Shown here: piece after piece, positions 24,979 to 35,183 of the stretch
How positions within the stretch are numbered: the first letter of the stretch is position 1
Layout: every line of letters starts with the position of its first letter
Source: a virus
Reading direction: 5' to 3' (one strand)
Virus record (IMG/VR): IMGVR_UViG_3300034523_000183
Coordinates: 1-37,113 of that record
Length of the DNA: 37,113 bases
Notes under the pieces: generated by a model
What the model was told of the DNA's origin: nothing
The model's input: only the letters and a program-made list of their open reading frames with translations
The model's database searches: none
Made by a program: the position numbers and the translations under genes

Positions 24979-25437
24979 CTATGTAGCATCAATGTTGCAC
25001 GCATGTTGCATTGGCACCCGACGAACGGTATGGCTTCGATCTGGGCCAGACCGCGCCGCCAGGATCCCTTGCACCTGCAGATGCATCGCTTTAACCCAGT
25101 TGCGATAGGTACGGTCCGCATCTTCGGCCAACCCTACCTGGCGCATCTGCTCACGGACGGGCGCTTCATGCAGATAGCGAAATACCGCCAGTCGAGCCAA
25201 TACCTTGCCACGCTTGTCGCGCCGTTCCAGTTCGGCCACAGCGGCATCGACTTCAGCCGCCGCATGATCAAGCCCAGCACCTGCGACCAAGATGCTGGAG
25301 CCTGAAGCTCCACCGCGCGGTGCGACGCCCTTCCACTCCATGATGCTGCCCATCTGGCTGCCCAAACCGGAACCCAGTCCGACACGTGCGCGCTGTTCCG
25401 CCCAATGGCGCATCAACATCTCGACGTCAGCAAGCAT
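24979..25437 (-). CDS. Candidate Q-like late antitermination/regulatory protein
   Basis: This 152-aa protein begins MLADVEMLMRHWAEQRARVG and includes LGSQMGSIMEWKG and a helical C-terminal segment (REQMRQVGLAEDADRTYRNWVKAMHLQ, in part) that could be a sigma region 4-like DNA-binding element. The general plan and the position, last early gene before holin and terminase, fit a late-gene activator. This role is inferred from position and a remembered resemblance, not from a decisive motif. GAGGGG lies six bases upstream of ATG 25437. Confidence 0.5.
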   Translation of the reverse strand: MLADVEMLMRHWAEQRARVGLGSGLGSQMGSIMEWKGVAPRGGASGSSILVAGAGLDHAAAEVDAAVAELERRDKRGKVLARLAVFRYLHEAPVREQMRQVGLAEDADRTYRNWVKAMHLQVQGILAARSGPDRSHTVRRVPMQHACNIDAT

Positions 25438-25446
25438 AAGTGCCCC

Positions 25447-25821
25447 TCAGCTCCGGCGACCGGAACGTCTCTCCGCTTCAACTTCGTTTTTCAGGGCGGC
25501 GTTGCGATTACACATCGGCTCCAGCATCGCGATGACGGCTAAGTAGTCAGGCAGGTGATCGCTAACCAGGATGTAGTCAATCACGCCATCATGGGCTTGA
25601 ACGTCGAAGACATGTAGAACCCCTGGCAGTTGTTTGAAGGAGGTGTCAGCCGAGCGCTGGTAGTGGCGGTACACATCCTTCGCATCATCCCAGAGATGAA
25701 AGCCCATGGTCTTCAAGTAATCGTCGCCATCGCCGATATCTCCCCACTGCTGTCCCGAGTACAGCTCCATCTCCTCAGCAACACGTTTCAGTTGTCCATT
25801 CTCTACGGTGTAAACAGCCAT
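25447..25821 (-). CDS. Unknown protein beside the origin
   Basis: This 124-aa acidic protein (MAVYTVENGQLKRVAEEMEL... then WGDIGDGDDYLKTMGFHLWDD) has no signal peptide or membrane segment and no family I recognise. GGAAGG lies seven bases upstream of the ATG, so it is well expressed. It is nine bases upstream of the Q-like gene and immediately downstream of the iteron region in the direction of transcription. A role in replication control or in the early-to-late switch is possible from position only. Confidence 0.55.
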   Translation of the reverse strand: MAVYTVENGQLKRVAEEMELYSGQQWGDIGDGDDYLKTMGFHLWDDAKDVYRHYQRSADTSFKQLPGVLHVFDVQAHDGVIDYILVSDHLPDYLAVIAMLEPMCNRNAALKNEVEAERRSGRRS

Positions 25822-25848
25822 TTTTAGCCTTCCTACGCTTATGGTTGA

Positions 25849-26074
25849 TGTCGGATCATTTGTCTGAATTCTGTCGGAATGATTAATCCCTTTAAATTCA
25901 ATAAATTAGCATCTAATTCAGACAATCAGACAGGTATTTGAGAAAGCCTTACGTATGGGAGCGCGCGCACGCGCACATGAGGATTTTCAAAAAGTCTGTC
26001 TGATTGTCGGATTGCCCGATTTCATTGGGCGAAGCACTGTCGGAACGTTGTCGGAATAGTGTCGGATTGTCGGA
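25849..26074. other. Iteron-type replication origin (candidate ori)
   Basis: Seven copies of TGTCGGA (starts 25849, 25872, 26005, 26038, 26049, 26060, 26068), two variants TGTCTGA (25861, 25997) and two inverted copies (25918, 25926) lie in 226 bp. Three steps in the right cluster are 11, 11 and 8 bases, one helical turn apart. Between the clusters is an AT-rich stretch (about 25879-25916) suitable for unwinding and an alternating GC/CA run at 25961-25978. The region abuts the primase-helicase stop at 26076. Confidence 0.75.
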
Positions 26075-26075
26075 A

Positions 26076-28640
26076 TCAAAAAGGTCCCGGCGGGGGCAAT
26101 ACGGGGCGGTCGAAAGCCGTCGTAAATTTACGGCATTCCAGCCCGGCCTTGCCAGCCCAATCGCGCCCTAGCTCGCCCTTCTCCGCCAAGAATGATGGCG
26201 TGACATAAATCCGCTTGGTGATGAACTGATCCCCCTTCGTGGGGTAGCGAATGTCGGTGCGTGCCTGTTTCAAATCCCTCACAGCCTCCTGCGTGAAGTC
26301 GCGCTGTCGGCGCTTGAACTCGTTCGCGCCATCACACCACTTACAGAATGCGCGCCACAAGTCATCTTGAGTAACAGCATTCGTCACTGGGAACTCTGTC
26401 TCCCCGGCCAGCCATCGGCGCACGAAATACCGTGGCGCGGGAAGGCTGCCATCAATCAGTCCCTGCTTTTCCTCATTGAGTGGAGGCTTGGTATGAGGGT
26501 TGAAGTCCGTCAAATCTAGGCTCATCAGGTATTCATAGAACGCCGAGATACCGCCTGTCTCGATCTCGCTCACCAATGCCTCGAAGTACTCCTTAGGTGG
26601 CACCCGGTCCACATACAGCACCAGGTACCGACGATCCCCATCATCCAATGCCAATGGTACCGTGGAGTTTGAAAGGAACACGAAATTGAGGTGATTCTTC
26701 TCTTCCCTCACCGGCATGTTCTTCTCGTTGATCTGTAGTGTCTCCCCGGTGACCAGGTGCTTCAGCACCCCCTTGTAGTGCCGCATTTCTTCACGGCTTA
26801 CCACCTCTTCAGCCAGCGCGAACAGCTTGCGGCTCTGCCAGCCCGTGAACTGGCTTTCCAACTGCGCCTGCCCGATGGTGGTGCCGTACGCGCCATAGAT
26901 CTCCCGCACCACCTTTTCCCACAGCAGGCTTTTACCAGGCCCCTCGGCGCCGAACATCACCACGGCTGTCGCCATCTTCGCGCCAGGGTTCTGAAGCGGA
27001 TAGGCAATCCACTTCAACAAAAAACGGTACTCATCCGCGCGGTTGTTACACAGCAGCCCCAAGTGTTTGAGAATGCGTTGGCATCCCTCTTGGCCGCGCT
27101 CATCCCGCTCTGCATGAAACCCATCGAACAGGTTCAACATCATCGGGTTGCAGGTCTCAGTCGGGTCAAAAACCACGTCCTGCGCCATCCGGCGATGCTC
27201 ACTCTCTTGCCACCACTTGTACGTGGTCCGCCCTACCGCCTCTCGAATGGCAGACAGCTTGATCATCCGCCCCCGGGCGCAATCCCAGGCGACGTCTGAG
27301 CCATAGATCACCACGAAGTCGCGCAGCAACTCCTGCTCGCTGATTCGAAAGCCCCCCGAGCCCCCAGGTGTGTGTGAGCCAGCCTGAAAATCATCATCCG
27401 GCCACTCTCGAGAAGGGGCGTGGGGAGGAGATTCAGAATCTGCAGCGACAGACACAGGCACAGATCCACTTTCAGGTACCGCCTGCTCACCGGAAGGGGC
27501 GCGGGGAGGGCCGCTGGGCACCATCCTCGCCTCTCCCAACGCAGGCGGCAAAGGCGCCCGGGACTGCCCCCCCAGGCCGAGCTGCCGTGCCGCTTCCTTG
27601 GTAGCAGCACGAACGTCACCCCCATGCTCGAGGATGCAGTACACGTCGAAAGCATCGTTCTTGTGCCCATTCGCCAGCGGGTCGGAGGTGTGGTGCGAGT
27701 AGAGCTTGTCCTCGTTGATTGTCACCCCGGGCATCCCCGAGCTGCTGTGCGGGCTCAACCACTTCCCGTCGATGCGCTTGTAGCCATGCGCCTCGATCAT
27801 CGTGGCGATGTCATGGATGCGGTTGAATTCCGGGATGACCTCGGGGAGCTTGTCACCAGATCGAACAGCAGCTGGAGATGGCCTTGGCAAGGGGCGAGCC
27901 GCAGGCATAGCCGGCTTCGGCCTCCATGGGCAAACGGCCTCTCCTTTGGGCTTGAACTCGTCCCAGCCCTGCCAGATCGCCAGCAGCTCGGGCGGAAGCA
28001 CCGGCAAGCCGCTGGCGACTGGCGCAGTGCGCCATGTGTAGGGCTTGCCCGTACCGGGGTGAATAGAAGGCGGCAGCACGTCCTGCACCAGGCCGCCCCG
28101 CAACTCGAAGACGGTCACTTTCTTGAAGGGCTCAGCCGCCAGGCGGAAAGCCGCTTCTCGGTCGGCATCTTCCTGGTCTACAGCTGCTTGGACCTGTGCC
28201 ATGAGCCCCTTGTAGATGGTGCCATCGGGGTCGTTCTTGTTGGGCCACACCAAGGCGTGACGGCTCAACTCAACACCCTCGGGGACGCGGAACATCACAC
28301 GGAAACGCTCAGGGTTACCCACGGAGGTCGGGTATGCGTCTGCAAGGGCGTCAACGTCGAGTCCAAGCGTCTGCTGCAGGACCTGCCGCGTCAGCTCGAC
28401 ATCATCGACGTCCAGCGAACAGACACGACTAGGCCCGAGTACCACCCCTAGGTTGTGACTCGGGCGCTTCGTCCAGAACGCTTCGGCATCAGCGGCGACA
28501 GTGAAGTAGCGACCGGGCTGGTTCCACCCCTTACCCTTTGGCCCCTTCTCGCCTGGCTCGATGGGAACCAGGGCCAAACCAAAGGTTTCAATGTAACGCC
28601 GCGCCCAATCAGCTGTGGTAGGAGTTGGGCGCGTACTCAT
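26076..28640 (-). CDS. PrimPol-helicase replication protein
   Basis: This 854-aa protein has an N-terminal bifunctional primase/polymerase domain: WARRYIETFGLALVPIEPG, the catalytic acidic cluster LDVDD (Asp77, Asp79) and His194 in PSIHPGTG. A long Pro/Ser linker follows (about 360-440). The C-terminal half is an SF3/D5-like helicase with Walker A GAEGPGKS at 564-571 and a DDGDRRYLVLYVD segment near 670. It should prime and unwind phage DNA at the adjacent iterons. Such single-chain primase-helicases are common in phage and satellite replicons. It overlaps the zinc-finger gene by four bases. Confidence 0.9.
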   Translation of the reverse strand: MSTRPTPTTADWARRYIETFGLALVPIEPGEKGPKGKGWNQPGRYFTVAADAEAFWTKRPSHNLGVVLGPSRVCSLDVDDVELTRQVLQQTLGLDVDALADAYPTSVGNPERFRVMFRVPEGVELSRHALVWPNKNDPDGTIYKGLMAQVQAAVDQEDADREAAFRLAAEPFKKVTVFELRGGLVQDVLPPSIHPGTGKPYTWRTAPVASGLPVLPPELLAIWQGWDEFKPKGEAVCPWRPKPAMPAARPLPRPSPAAVRSGDKLPEVIPEFNRIHDIATMIEAHGYKRIDGKWLSPHSSSGMPGVTINEDKLYSHHTSDPLANGHKNDAFDVYCILEHGGDVRAATKEAARQLGLGGQSRAPLPPALGEARMVPSGPPRAPSGEQAVPESGSVPVSVAADSESPPHAPSREWPDDDFQAGSHTPGGSGGFRISEQELLRDFVVIYGSDVAWDCARGRMIKLSAIREAVGRTTYKWWQESEHRRMAQDVVFDPTETCNPMMLNLFDGFHAERDERGQEGCQRILKHLGLLCNNRADEYRFLLKWIAYPLQNPGAKMATAVVMFGAEGPGKSLLWEKVVREIYGAYGTTIGQAQLESQFTGWQSRKLFALAEEVVSREEMRHYKGVLKHLVTGETLQINEKNMPVREEKNHLNFVFLSNSTVPLALDDGDRRYLVLYVDRVPPKEYFEALVSEIETGGISAFYEYLMSLDLTDFNPHTKPPLNEEKQGLIDGSLPAPRYFVRRWLAGETEFPVTNAVTQDDLWRAFCKWCDGANEFKRRQRDFTQEAVRDLKQARTDIRYPTKGDQFITKRIYVTPSFLAEKGELGRDWAGKAGLECRKFTTAFDRPVLPPPGPF

Positions 28641-32588: not shown

Positions 32589-32936
32589 CTGGGAGATTGC
32601 ACCTCATTTAGTCCGTTTCACCCGCCCTGACTGTCTGTTTGCACGAGCCTACCATCCAGTTGCATTTAACTCGACCACCCACTATCGATGGCCGGCGATC
32701 GTCGGCTATCGACACATAGCCGCCCTTCACGGAGCACAGCTATCGGCCAAAAGCGGACCTGTTCCCCCTCTACAGAGAGACCGTAGTTTGCAGGCCGTGG
32801 TCAATGTGGGCGCTAAAGGAGCACCATAGATCTTTACTATTTATCGCCATGCAGCGATGATGGCACTTGGCCAAAAGCCATGAATGCAGTTCAAATAAAA
32901 GCTTATATCAACTGATTCACAAATATGAGGGGGCTT
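32589..32936. other. Non-coding gap before the defence cargo
   Basis: No gene is visible in these 348 bases. The left part is GC-rich with a near-palindrome GCCGGCGATCGTCGGC (32691-32706) and repeated CTATCG words, including TATCGGCCAAAAGCGG near 32740, a phrase I recall as common in Pseudomonas intergenic DNA. The right part turns AT-rich. The ariA promoter probably lies here, but I see no clear hexamer pair. The composition switch near 32820 likely marks the edge of the acquired DNA. Confidence 0.5.
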
Positions 32937-34286
32937 ATGAAAATAACTCGAGTAGTGGTTAAAGGACTGTTCGGCGTTTTTGATCACGACATTCCGCTTA
33001 AGAAAGAAAGCGGCATAACTATAATAATTGGCGAAAACGGCTTAGGGAAAACAGTAATACTAGAGTCTATAAATGCCTTCTTCGGCGGAAATTTCAATTT
33101 CTTCACAACCCTTAAATTTGATAAATTTATATTCCACTTCGATACAAGTGAGTGCTGGCACTTAATCAAACAATCCGCGAGTGACGGCATAGCTCTTTCC
33201 ATCGCAAAGGATAACTCCGAAAAACCTTTGCCAAAGCTAAGGTATGACCGAATTTTTCATAAAATCGCAGATTCTCGAGATCCTCGAGATCCTCGAGAGG
33301 TTCGAAGACGCGCAAGGGAGAGAGAACGGAGATATGAGTATGAGCACATACTATTTGACACCTCGCGGGAGGAAGTCACCAGGTATATGATCGAGCGTGA
33401 CATGATGGAACGTGACATGGAACGCCTAATATACGCACGCCATTATGAAAGGGAAAAAATAAGTCCACCCAGGTGGTTTGTAGATGGAGTAGCCAACACC
33501 AACGTCAGCTTAATTGAAACGCAACGAATTATTTCACCAAAAGAGTCTGGGGGCGAGTCATATGTAAGCACTGTAAAACATTGCTCAGGCGAACTAAAAG
33601 AACTGATATCAAAAACCATTAAAGAATCCTCAGACATATCATCCGGCCTAGACAGCACTTACCCAAGCAGATTAATATCAAAACTGCGCGAAAAGACCGA
33701 ATACACATATGATGAGCTCAATAAAGCTCTATCTGCCTTAGATGAAAAACGGAAAAATCTCTCCTTGGCAGGACTAGTTGTGGACGCTCAAGACTCGGTA
33801 TTACCGAAGATCGAGGAAAACCAAGATAACTTGATCACACTGCTAAAGCTTTATATTGATGATAGTTACGACAAGCTTAAACCGTATGACGGCCTCTCTC
33901 AAAAAATCACTTTACTCAGAAGCATAATTAACAAGAGATTCAAGCACAAACAATTAGAGATCAGCAAGGATGAGGGCTTTGTATTTCGCTCCACCGTTAT
34001 CAAGGAGCATGATGGATTCGCAAAAATTCTCCCCTCAAAACTGTCTTCAGGTGAACAGCACGAACTAGTTCTATTCTATAAATTAATCTTCAAATCCAGT
34101 GTAGACGATCTTATTTTAATTGATGAGCCAGAGCTATCACTACACATCTCTTGGCAAAACAAATTCATCGCCGACCTCAAAGAGGTTGCTGCTTTGAATG
34201 CATTCTCAGCAGTAATTGCCACACACTCTCCAGACATAATCTCTGAGAACTGGGACCTCAAGATCGAGCTGATTGGAGTTGAATAA
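32937..34286 (+). CDS. ariA: AriA-like ABC/OLD-type ATPase of a PARIS defence system
   Basis: This 449-aa protein starts MKITRVVVKGLFGVFDHDIPL; AGGGGG lies just upstream of ATG 32937, so the ATG at 32925 is rejected. Walker A is GENGLGKT (32-39), the ABC-like signature KLSSGEQ lies at 368-374, Walker B is LILIDEP with Asp396/Glu397, and a C-terminal switch His430 sits in ATHSP. The middle is helical, with a very charged Arg/Glu/Asp insertion at about 113-160. In PARIS, AriA forms a scaffold that holds AriB and releases it when a phage anti-restriction protein such as Ocr is sensed. It directly abuts a DUF4435 gene. OLD-like ATPases in other systems are the alternative. Confidence 0.82.
   Translation: MKITRVVVKGLFGVFDHDIPLKKESGITIIIGENGLGKTVILESINAFFGGNFNFFTTLKFDKFIFHFDTSECWHLIKQSASDGIALSIAKDNSEKPLPKLRYDRIFHKIADSRDPRDPREVRRRARERERRYEYEHILFDTSREEVTRYMIERDMMERDMERLIYARHYEREKISPPRWFVDGVANTNVSLIETQRIISPKESGGESYVSTVKHCSGELKELISKTIKESSDISSGLDSTYPSRLISKLREKTEYTYDELNKALSALDEKRKNLSLAGLVVDAQDSVLPKIEENQDNLITLLKLYIDDSYDKLKPYDGLSQKITLLRSIINKRFKHKQLEISKDEGFVFRSTVIKEHDGFAKILPSKLSSGEQHELVLFYKLIFKSSVDDLILIDEPELSLHISWQNKFIADLKEVAALNAFSAVIATHSPDIISENWDLKIELIGVE
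33274..33298 (+). repeat. 9-nt tandem repeat inside ariA
   Basis: TCGAGATCC-type units are repeated almost perfectly (CGAGATCCT twice, then a partial copy), encoding Arg-Asp-Pro repeats (RDPRDPRE). Because the unit is in frame, copy-number changes would lengthen or shorten the charged insertion without breaking the gene. Confidence 0.75.
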
Positions 34287-35183
34287 ATGGAGCAATATAT
34301 CACTGCAGACAGAATCGCAAACTCGATAATGCAAGAAGAAAAATTTGAAGGAGGTGCATATCTTTTGGTAGAAGGAGCAAAAGACATAAAGGTATATGGC
34401 CGCCTAGTAAACAAAAATACCGTAAGAGTTAGGCAGACACATGGAAAATACAGACAAAGAGAGGTCTACAAAATCCTCACGGAGCGTGGATTCAAATCTA
34501 AACTTTGCGTTAGAGATGCCGACTTTCTACGGGTTCCCGGGAACGAAAAATATATCCCAGAATACGCGGAAAATATATTTGCGACCGACGGACACGATTC
34601 GGAAATAATGATGATTAGTAGTGAAGCATTAAACAGCCTCTTACTGATCACATCAACCGAAGAAAAAATTAAGTCTTTTGAAAACAAGCATGGCCGTGAT
34701 ATTAGATCGCTTGTACTTGAGCTCGCAAAACCAATAGGATATTTGCGATATGCAAACAAAAAATATAAGCTTGGATTATCTTTTAAACCCGAGCGACCTG
34801 AAGGCAAGGGGATAAAGTTCAAAAAATTCATTTGCGAAAAGAACTTCAAAATGTTCAGCATTGACGCGATGATAAACACTGTTTATGAGTATTCGAAAAA
34901 TCGCGGCCAAGAGGTCAGCTCGCGAGAATCCATCCTGAAAAAATTTCAGGAAGTTTTTGACCTTGACATACCTCCACTGGAACTGGTTAATGGGCATGAT
35001 GCTTCAGAGTTGCTATCGATGGTAATCTCCAAAGGATTGCAGAGTGACAATAAATTAGCTCAAGATCAGGCATCTGTGGAAGGCGCACTTACCTTAGCGT
35101 ATGAGCTCAGATACTTCCATAACTCCAACCTATTCATGGCGCTTCAAAAATGGTCAGCGTCAAATGGAATAAACGTTGTGTGA
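34287..35183 (+). CDS. ariB: AriB-like DUF4435/TOPRIM effector of a PARIS system
   Basis: This 298-aa protein has a TOPRIM-like N-terminus: LLVEGAKD with Glu29, followed by CVRDADF with Asp77 and Asp79, the acidic cluster needed for nuclease action. The TDGHDSEIMM segment and helical C-terminal half fit DUF4435. In PARIS, AriB freed from AriA cleaves tRNA and halts growth of infected cells; tRNA-Lys is a reported target, and I cannot infer the target here. Its ATG follows the ariA TAA with no gap, with GGAG about eight bases upstream. It has the same low GC as ariA, so the pair moved together. Confidence 0.82.
   Translation: MEQYITADRIANSIMQEEKFEGGAYLLVEGAKDIKVYGRLVNKNTVRVRQTHGKYRQREVYKILTERGFKSKLCVRDADFLRVPGNEKYIPEYAENIFATDGHDSEIMMISSEALNSLLLITSTEEKIKSFENKHGRDIRSLVLELAKPIGYLRYANKKYKLGLSFKPERPEGKGIKFKKFICEKNFKMFSIDAMINTVYEYSKNRGQEVSSRESILKKFQEVFDLDIPPLELVNGHDASELLSMVISKGLQSDNKLAQDQASVEGALTLAYELRYFHNSNLFMALQKWSASNGINVV

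Follow-up and report, generated by a model that had tools for sequence, protein, structure and literature searches.

A candidate iteron replication origin directly downstream of a PrimPol-helicase gene in a complete temperate phage

The primase-helicase gene and the array beside it

The window analysed here, meaning the whole 37,113-nucleotide stretch of the virus record IMGVR_UViG_3300034523_000183, carries genes for terminase, portal, protease, major head protein, sheath, tape measure and baseplate, together with an integrase and a CII-like regulator. This 37-kb record represents a full, contractile-tailed temperate phage and not a satellite; PICIs, which are satellites lacking the full set of head and tail genes, do not include it. 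It also encodes, at 32925-35183 (+), an AriA-like (AAA_15) and AriB-like (DUF4435) pair that matches models of the PARIS anti-phage defence, in a stretch of ~40% GC inside a phage of ~62% GC, and this pair is probably defence cargo.

The gene at 26076-28640 (-) encodes a protein of 854 aa with Pfam matches to Prim-Pol (residues 13-210), DUF5906 (563-671) and VapE-like (543-679) and with matches to the PHROG DNA primase families. Residues 530-730 resemble the helicase of the NrS-1 primase (6k9c, E 1.2e-17), while TIGR01613, the P4-family primase C-terminal domain, was matched at 24.4 bits against a cut-off of 108.7, as by a distant relative only. When the C-terminal domain was used in a profile search against solved structures nothing credible was returned. 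AlphaFold2 models of the two types of this domain, with pLDDT of 81.9 (window) and 78.3, found mostly winged-helix domains as their best structural matches (ORC, RFX, the C-terminus of the NrS-1 primase and AsfvPrimPol), and with Z of ~4-5.5 these matches point to no more than the general fold. Among the structure matches listed the P4 origin-binding domain did not occur, an absence that excludes nothing, the winged-helix matches themselves being weak (Z 4-5.4).

Between the stop codon of this gene and the next gene on the same strand, 25447-25821 (-), lies a gap of 257 bp with a GC content of 43%, compared with mostly 62-65% in the structural region, and the gap is filled by a repeat array. 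The initial annotation had reported eleven copies or variants of TGTCGGA in 226 bp, inverted ones included, and both counting and shuffling bore this out. TGTCGGA occurs exactly on the plus strand at 25849, 25872, 26005, 26038, 26049, 26060 and 26068 (n = 7), and TGTCTGA on the plus strand at 25861 and 25997 and on the minus strand at 25918 and 25926 (n = 4), giving eleven copies at 25849-26074 with start-to-start spacings of 12, 11, 46, 8, 71, 8, 33, 11, 11 and 8. The best 7-mer of the gap is present seven times, and in 2000 dinucleotide shuffles no 7-mer occurred more than five times. Across the window there are 12 exact copies of TGTCGGA where 4.7 are expected (maximum of 100 shuffles, 11), and seven of the 12 are inside the array. 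No other 257-bp stretch of the window, whose record is perhaps incomplete at its ends, contained any 7-mer five times, and the GC skew along the window had no switch at the array. The features of the locus are as follows.

26076-28640 (-): putative initiator gene, 854-aa PrimPol-SF3 helicase with a C-terminal DNA-binding-like domain (Pfam, PHROG)
28011-28604 (-): PrimPol domain (aa 13-210)
26628-26954 (-): core of the helicase domain (aa 563-671; PF19263)
26079-26507 (-): C-terminal domain (aa 712-854), predicted to be winged-helix-like and presumed to bind the iterons
26038-26074 (+): iteron cluster I, TGTCGGA at 26038, 26049, 26060 and 26068, kept in relatives
25997-26011 (+): iteron doublet TGTCTGA-T-TGTCGGA, 8-bp spacing
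25961-25977 (no strand): alternating purine-pyrimidine CG tract GCGCGCGCACGCGCACA, 17 nt, mid-array, a possible Z-DNA former
25918-26011 (no strand): imperfect palindrome or stem-loop core of 94 bp with the inverted and direct doublets as arms, 70% complementary
25918-25932 (-): inverted iteron doublet, two TGTCTGA, 8-bp spacing
25879-25917 (no strand): AT-rich stretch (79% AT by count), candidate unwinding element; relatives show an AT peak at the corresponding position
25849-25878 (+): iteron cluster III, copies at 25849, 25861 (TGTCTGA) and 25872, kept in relatives

The AT-rich stretch that had been noted initially is thus present, but it separates the outer cluster from the inverted doublet, and the middle of the array is taken by the CG tract, which had gone unmentioned.

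Conservation of the array and its layout in relatives

Since a search of a phage collection with the origin region as DNA gave no match, relatives were reached via the protein. Three scans yielded 188 distinct primase loci with sufficient downstream DNA, and an array was scored where some 7-mer occurred at least five times in the 500 bp around and after the stop codon. The iteron origin proposed in the initial annotation implied arrays beside related primases, and 178 of the 188 relatives have one, with a motif that is lineage-specific; the five-copy threshold was reached in 0 upstream regions and in 6 regions at 700-1200 bp downstream. These loci are mostly from Pseudomonas and fall into 34 groups when clustered at 90% helicase identity, so that the counts are not independent. 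The motifs found de novo in the different lineages included TGTCGGA, TGTCTGA, TGTGTTGGGT, TGTGTAAGGT, GTGTCATAA, AGGTGTC, TGGGAAGGGT and others. Eight named phages carry the array, namely Presto, SC_9, LPPA56, KT1, PG1, Halomonas H4907, Stenotrophomonas S1 and Moraxella Mcat4, and they could be used for testing how SF3 initiators open DNA. It was absent in Vibrio K300 and Stenotrophomonas Bhz59, both of which have distantly related helicases.

Whatever the motif, the order of elements from the stop codon onwards is a cluster of three to four iterons, a doublet, the alternating tract, an inverted doublet or triplet, an AT-rich stretch and a second cluster. An automatic test found the doublet, tract and inverted doublet in succession at 161 of 185 loci, the 24 that failed its doublet step having mostly one diverged copy. 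Neighbouring iterons are mostly spaced by 9, 11 or 8 bp across loci, and among the relatives of type A the iterons and a CTCAyGTGCrCG block are conserved while the remaining spacers drift.

Several individual loci deserve mention. Those with a weak 7-mer seed (L028, L122, L221 and L222 among them) have a disrupted frame, an array missed by the seed or none. At L020, L049, L185 and L191 the primase-helicase frame is broken into shorter frames and the array still adjoins it. In L006 (7510-7800) several iterons have TGTCGGT (ACCGACA) in place of TGTCGGA and the protein is still of type A, providing a natural variant with which the recognition code could be tested. Hypothetical genes have been annotated over the array in L232 (2454-2804, Stenotrophomonas phage S1 gp2) and L230 (2939-3055, Halomonas phage H4907), and these may be spurious.

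The core of the array was also analysed for its structure. Folded as a single strand, the core of the window (25912-26018, 107 nt) gave z = -5.64, and a weaker fold (z -1.8) in a fixed frame of 170 nt; with this fixed frame z was below -2 in 26 of 34 representatives, compared with 3 control regions. A good part of this folding is explained by the inverted doublets alone. Alternating tracts of at least 12 nt without an AT or TA step were present in 157 of 185 origin regions, in 0 of 181 upstream and 0 of 181 far regions and in 3.6% of shuffles, and tracts of at least 10 nt start at a median of 124 bp past the stop codon. The conserved CG tract possibly forms Z-DNA, and no earlier case of such a tract in a phage origin with iterons turned up in the open-access literature that we searched.

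Repeats between two genes of the same strand could also be an operator, controlling transcription of the initiator gene or of the next gene with no part in an origin, and the initiators of iteron plasmids often regulate their own genes too. The array, however, is found on the 3' side of the gene that it follows in sequence, its more than 200 bp include both a structured core and an AT-rich stretch, and its arrangement persists although motifs and downstream genes vary widely, which makes a purely regulatory role highly improbable. We instead regard the array and its layout, as judged from these sequence comparisons, as a conserved origin architecture.

The helicase half, the iteron and their joint exchange

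The relative L069 separates the parts of the protein that could be linked to the iteron. Its PrimPol domain is 95% identical to that of the window, while its helicase and C-terminal domain are 41% and 27% identical, and its iteron is TGTGTTGGGT. L146 is without a PrimPol domain, shares 89% of its helicase and 87% of its C-terminal domain with the window, and has the TGTCGGA iteron. When a two-way iteron label was placed on trees of 58 loci, the PrimPol tree needed 7 changes, of which well-supported branches force at least 5, and 1 change sufficed on each of the helicase and C-terminal trees. The iteron sequence, compared in this way, tracks the helicase/C-terminal module and not the PrimPol domain, which is exchangeable independently of the origin. 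The plasmid- or satellite-style origin envisaged initially, probably bound by the adjacent PrimPol-helicase, gains support from this tracking and from the constant place of the array in relatives. In partial Mantel tests the iteron correlated with the C-terminal domain (OBD) given the core at -0.03 and with the core given the OBD at 0.44, but because core and OBD covary almost perfectly (r 0.98) these values do not tell whether the iteron is read by the helicase core or by the C-terminal domain.

Comparing the DNA of the window with that of L069 delimited the exchanged block:

25415-27599 (no strand): exchange cassette of helicase, C-terminal domain, origin and the small gene 25447-25821

The two genomes are 95.6% identical at 29548-27599 and unmatched at 27599-25415, and homology resumes at 25415. 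L009, L080 and L156 have breakpoints near-identical to those of L069, while L012, L013 and L146 share with the window the other part, from ~27380 down to the origin. Homology breakpoints cluster at 27596-27648 and 27374-27383 (aa ~331-348 and 420), both within the linker that joins PrimPol to the helicase, which is thus a recombination joint.

The initial annotation had suggested a self-contained replication module. Since the helicase, the C-terminal domain and the array are exchanged as one block this idea is supported for these parts, but it does not extend to the PrimPol domain, which the iterons do not track, and primases of the TOPRIM type are also paired with the helicase-origin module. 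One and the same helicase-origin module is fused to PrimPol in the window, fused to PriCT-2/TOPRIM in L014, and placed behind a separate PriCT-2/TOPRIM gene in Halomonas H4907.

The small gene 25447-25821 encodes 124 aa, has no family match and is swapped together with the origin cassette; at the matching position Halomonas H4907 has a gene annotated as an antitermination protein.

With the terminase genes ~2 kb away, we also considered a packaging site (pac or cos) or another DNA-handling site. The iteron, however, tracks the helicase and not the terminase region, and L009, whose terminase-region DNA is 92% identical to that of the window over 3.3 kb, has a different iteron; we therefore rejected a packaging site, the chance of which is practically negligible.

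The proposed origin compared with known systems

The best explanation of these data, and in our judgement a very probable one, is that 25849-26074 serves as the replication origin of the phage and the 26076-28640 protein as its initiator. The C-terminal winged-helix-like domain would bind the iterons, as in SaPI and P4, and the inverted doublets would position helicase subunits facing opposite ways on the two sides of the core, allowing two SF3 rings to assemble. Melting may occur at the core or at the AT-rich stretch, after which the rings would unwind outwards and the attached primase would start synthesis, presumably in both directions.

The array could alternatively be an auxiliary site resembling crr of P4, at which the initiator binds while synthesis begins elsewhere, because P4 has an array, crr, that lies 3' of alpha and is required in cis, and its annotated origin starts ~4.5 kb off. 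Its position relative to the initiator gene is the same as that of crr, and its iterons likewise have both orientations. Against this, there is no second iteron cluster in the window, SaPI and PICI origins in the same place act alone (PMC6092414), and the array contains both an AT-rich stretch and a stem-loop. We consider an auxiliary role unlikely and favour the array as the origin itself.

Systems of this kind are already known from the SaPI/PICI origins and P4 crr. What is new here is their presence in complete phages, the exchangeable matched cassette, the conserved tract and the reinterpretation of Bordetella phage BIP-1 given below, with the proviso that our literature check covered open-access papers and an earlier description is possible. 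The replicon plan that has been described as unique to PICIs is no longer confined to them, being shared by complete temperate phages from Pseudomonas, Halomonas, Stenotrophomonas, Moraxella and others. We would tentatively go further and propose, as a plausible idea that could well prove wrong, a plan shared by the SF3 initiators of phages, satellites and possibly archaeal plasmids. In this plan a structured core immediately 3' of the gene would be flanked by iteron doublets in inverted orientation, helicase, binding domain and origin would travel together as one matched cassette among primases whose folds are unrelated, and the conserved alternating CG tract would be a functional part of the core, possibly Z-DNA-forming. 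If so, such a cassette would let phages switch their replication specificity in one exchange. The cassette exchange described above shows replication specificity passing between closely related phages, with a bearing on the coexistence of phages and satellites in one cell, and the natural sets of matched protein and iteron variants could allow the recognition code to be derived.

As regards lambda, the origin lies inside gene O, and O has neither helicase nor primase. The window shares with ori-lambda the iterons and the AT-rich stretch, but its array is intergenic and its putative initiator a PrimPol-SF3 protein, in agreement with the initial view that this is not an origin of the lambda O type.

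The SaPI/PICI replicons, a precedent for an array-type origin (PMC6092414), have their origin directly 3' of the gene for the primase/helicase initiator (PMC6092414, PMC7581432), and in SaPI Rep and Cch2 it is the C-terminal domain that binds the iterons, which follow immediately downstream of the respective gene (PMC7581432). The placement is the same here, the last iteron ending at 26074 and the initiator stop codon occupying 26076-26078, with relatives arranged likewise. Also shared are two iteron sets (25849-25878 and 25918-26074) with the AT-rich stretch between them. What differs is the host, here a complete temperate phage that has genes for head, tail, terminase and integrase, and the presence of inverted doublets around a conserved alternating CG tract.

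P4 resembles the window in its SF3 helicase initiator (alpha), in an array 3' of the gene, and in iterons of both orientations flanking a core, these being present within each 120-bp repeat of crr. It differs in its second, distant iteron origin (two separate iteron sites, against a single cluster in the window, whose record may be incomplete at its ends), in its TOPRIM primase, in cores that are AT-rich and not CG, and in being a satellite.

A further parallel is with ORF904 of pRN1 and with BIP-1, in which a PrimPol-SF3-winged-helix protein is followed by a structured element of ~100 bp 3' of its gene (PMC4234260), as it is here by 25918-26011. Such proteins were proposed to use stem-loops and not iterons, BIP-1 being cited, and pRN1 mutants favour structure (PMC4234260). 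In the window, in contrast to pRN1 and BIP-1 as published, the arms are iterons and further direct clusters are present. The arms of pRN1 contain only a TGTCCA doublet with 9-bp spacing, too short to convince alone and thus weak evidence. The BIP-1 element, however, reads as a TTTGCCTCG doublet, TTTCTCATACGTGTACATGAGAAA and then an inverted TTTGCCTCG doublet, so its stem includes iteron doublets, which suggests that the published distinction of stem-loop origins (pRN1, BIP-1) from iteron origins (P4, SaPI) stems at least in part from how they have been described.
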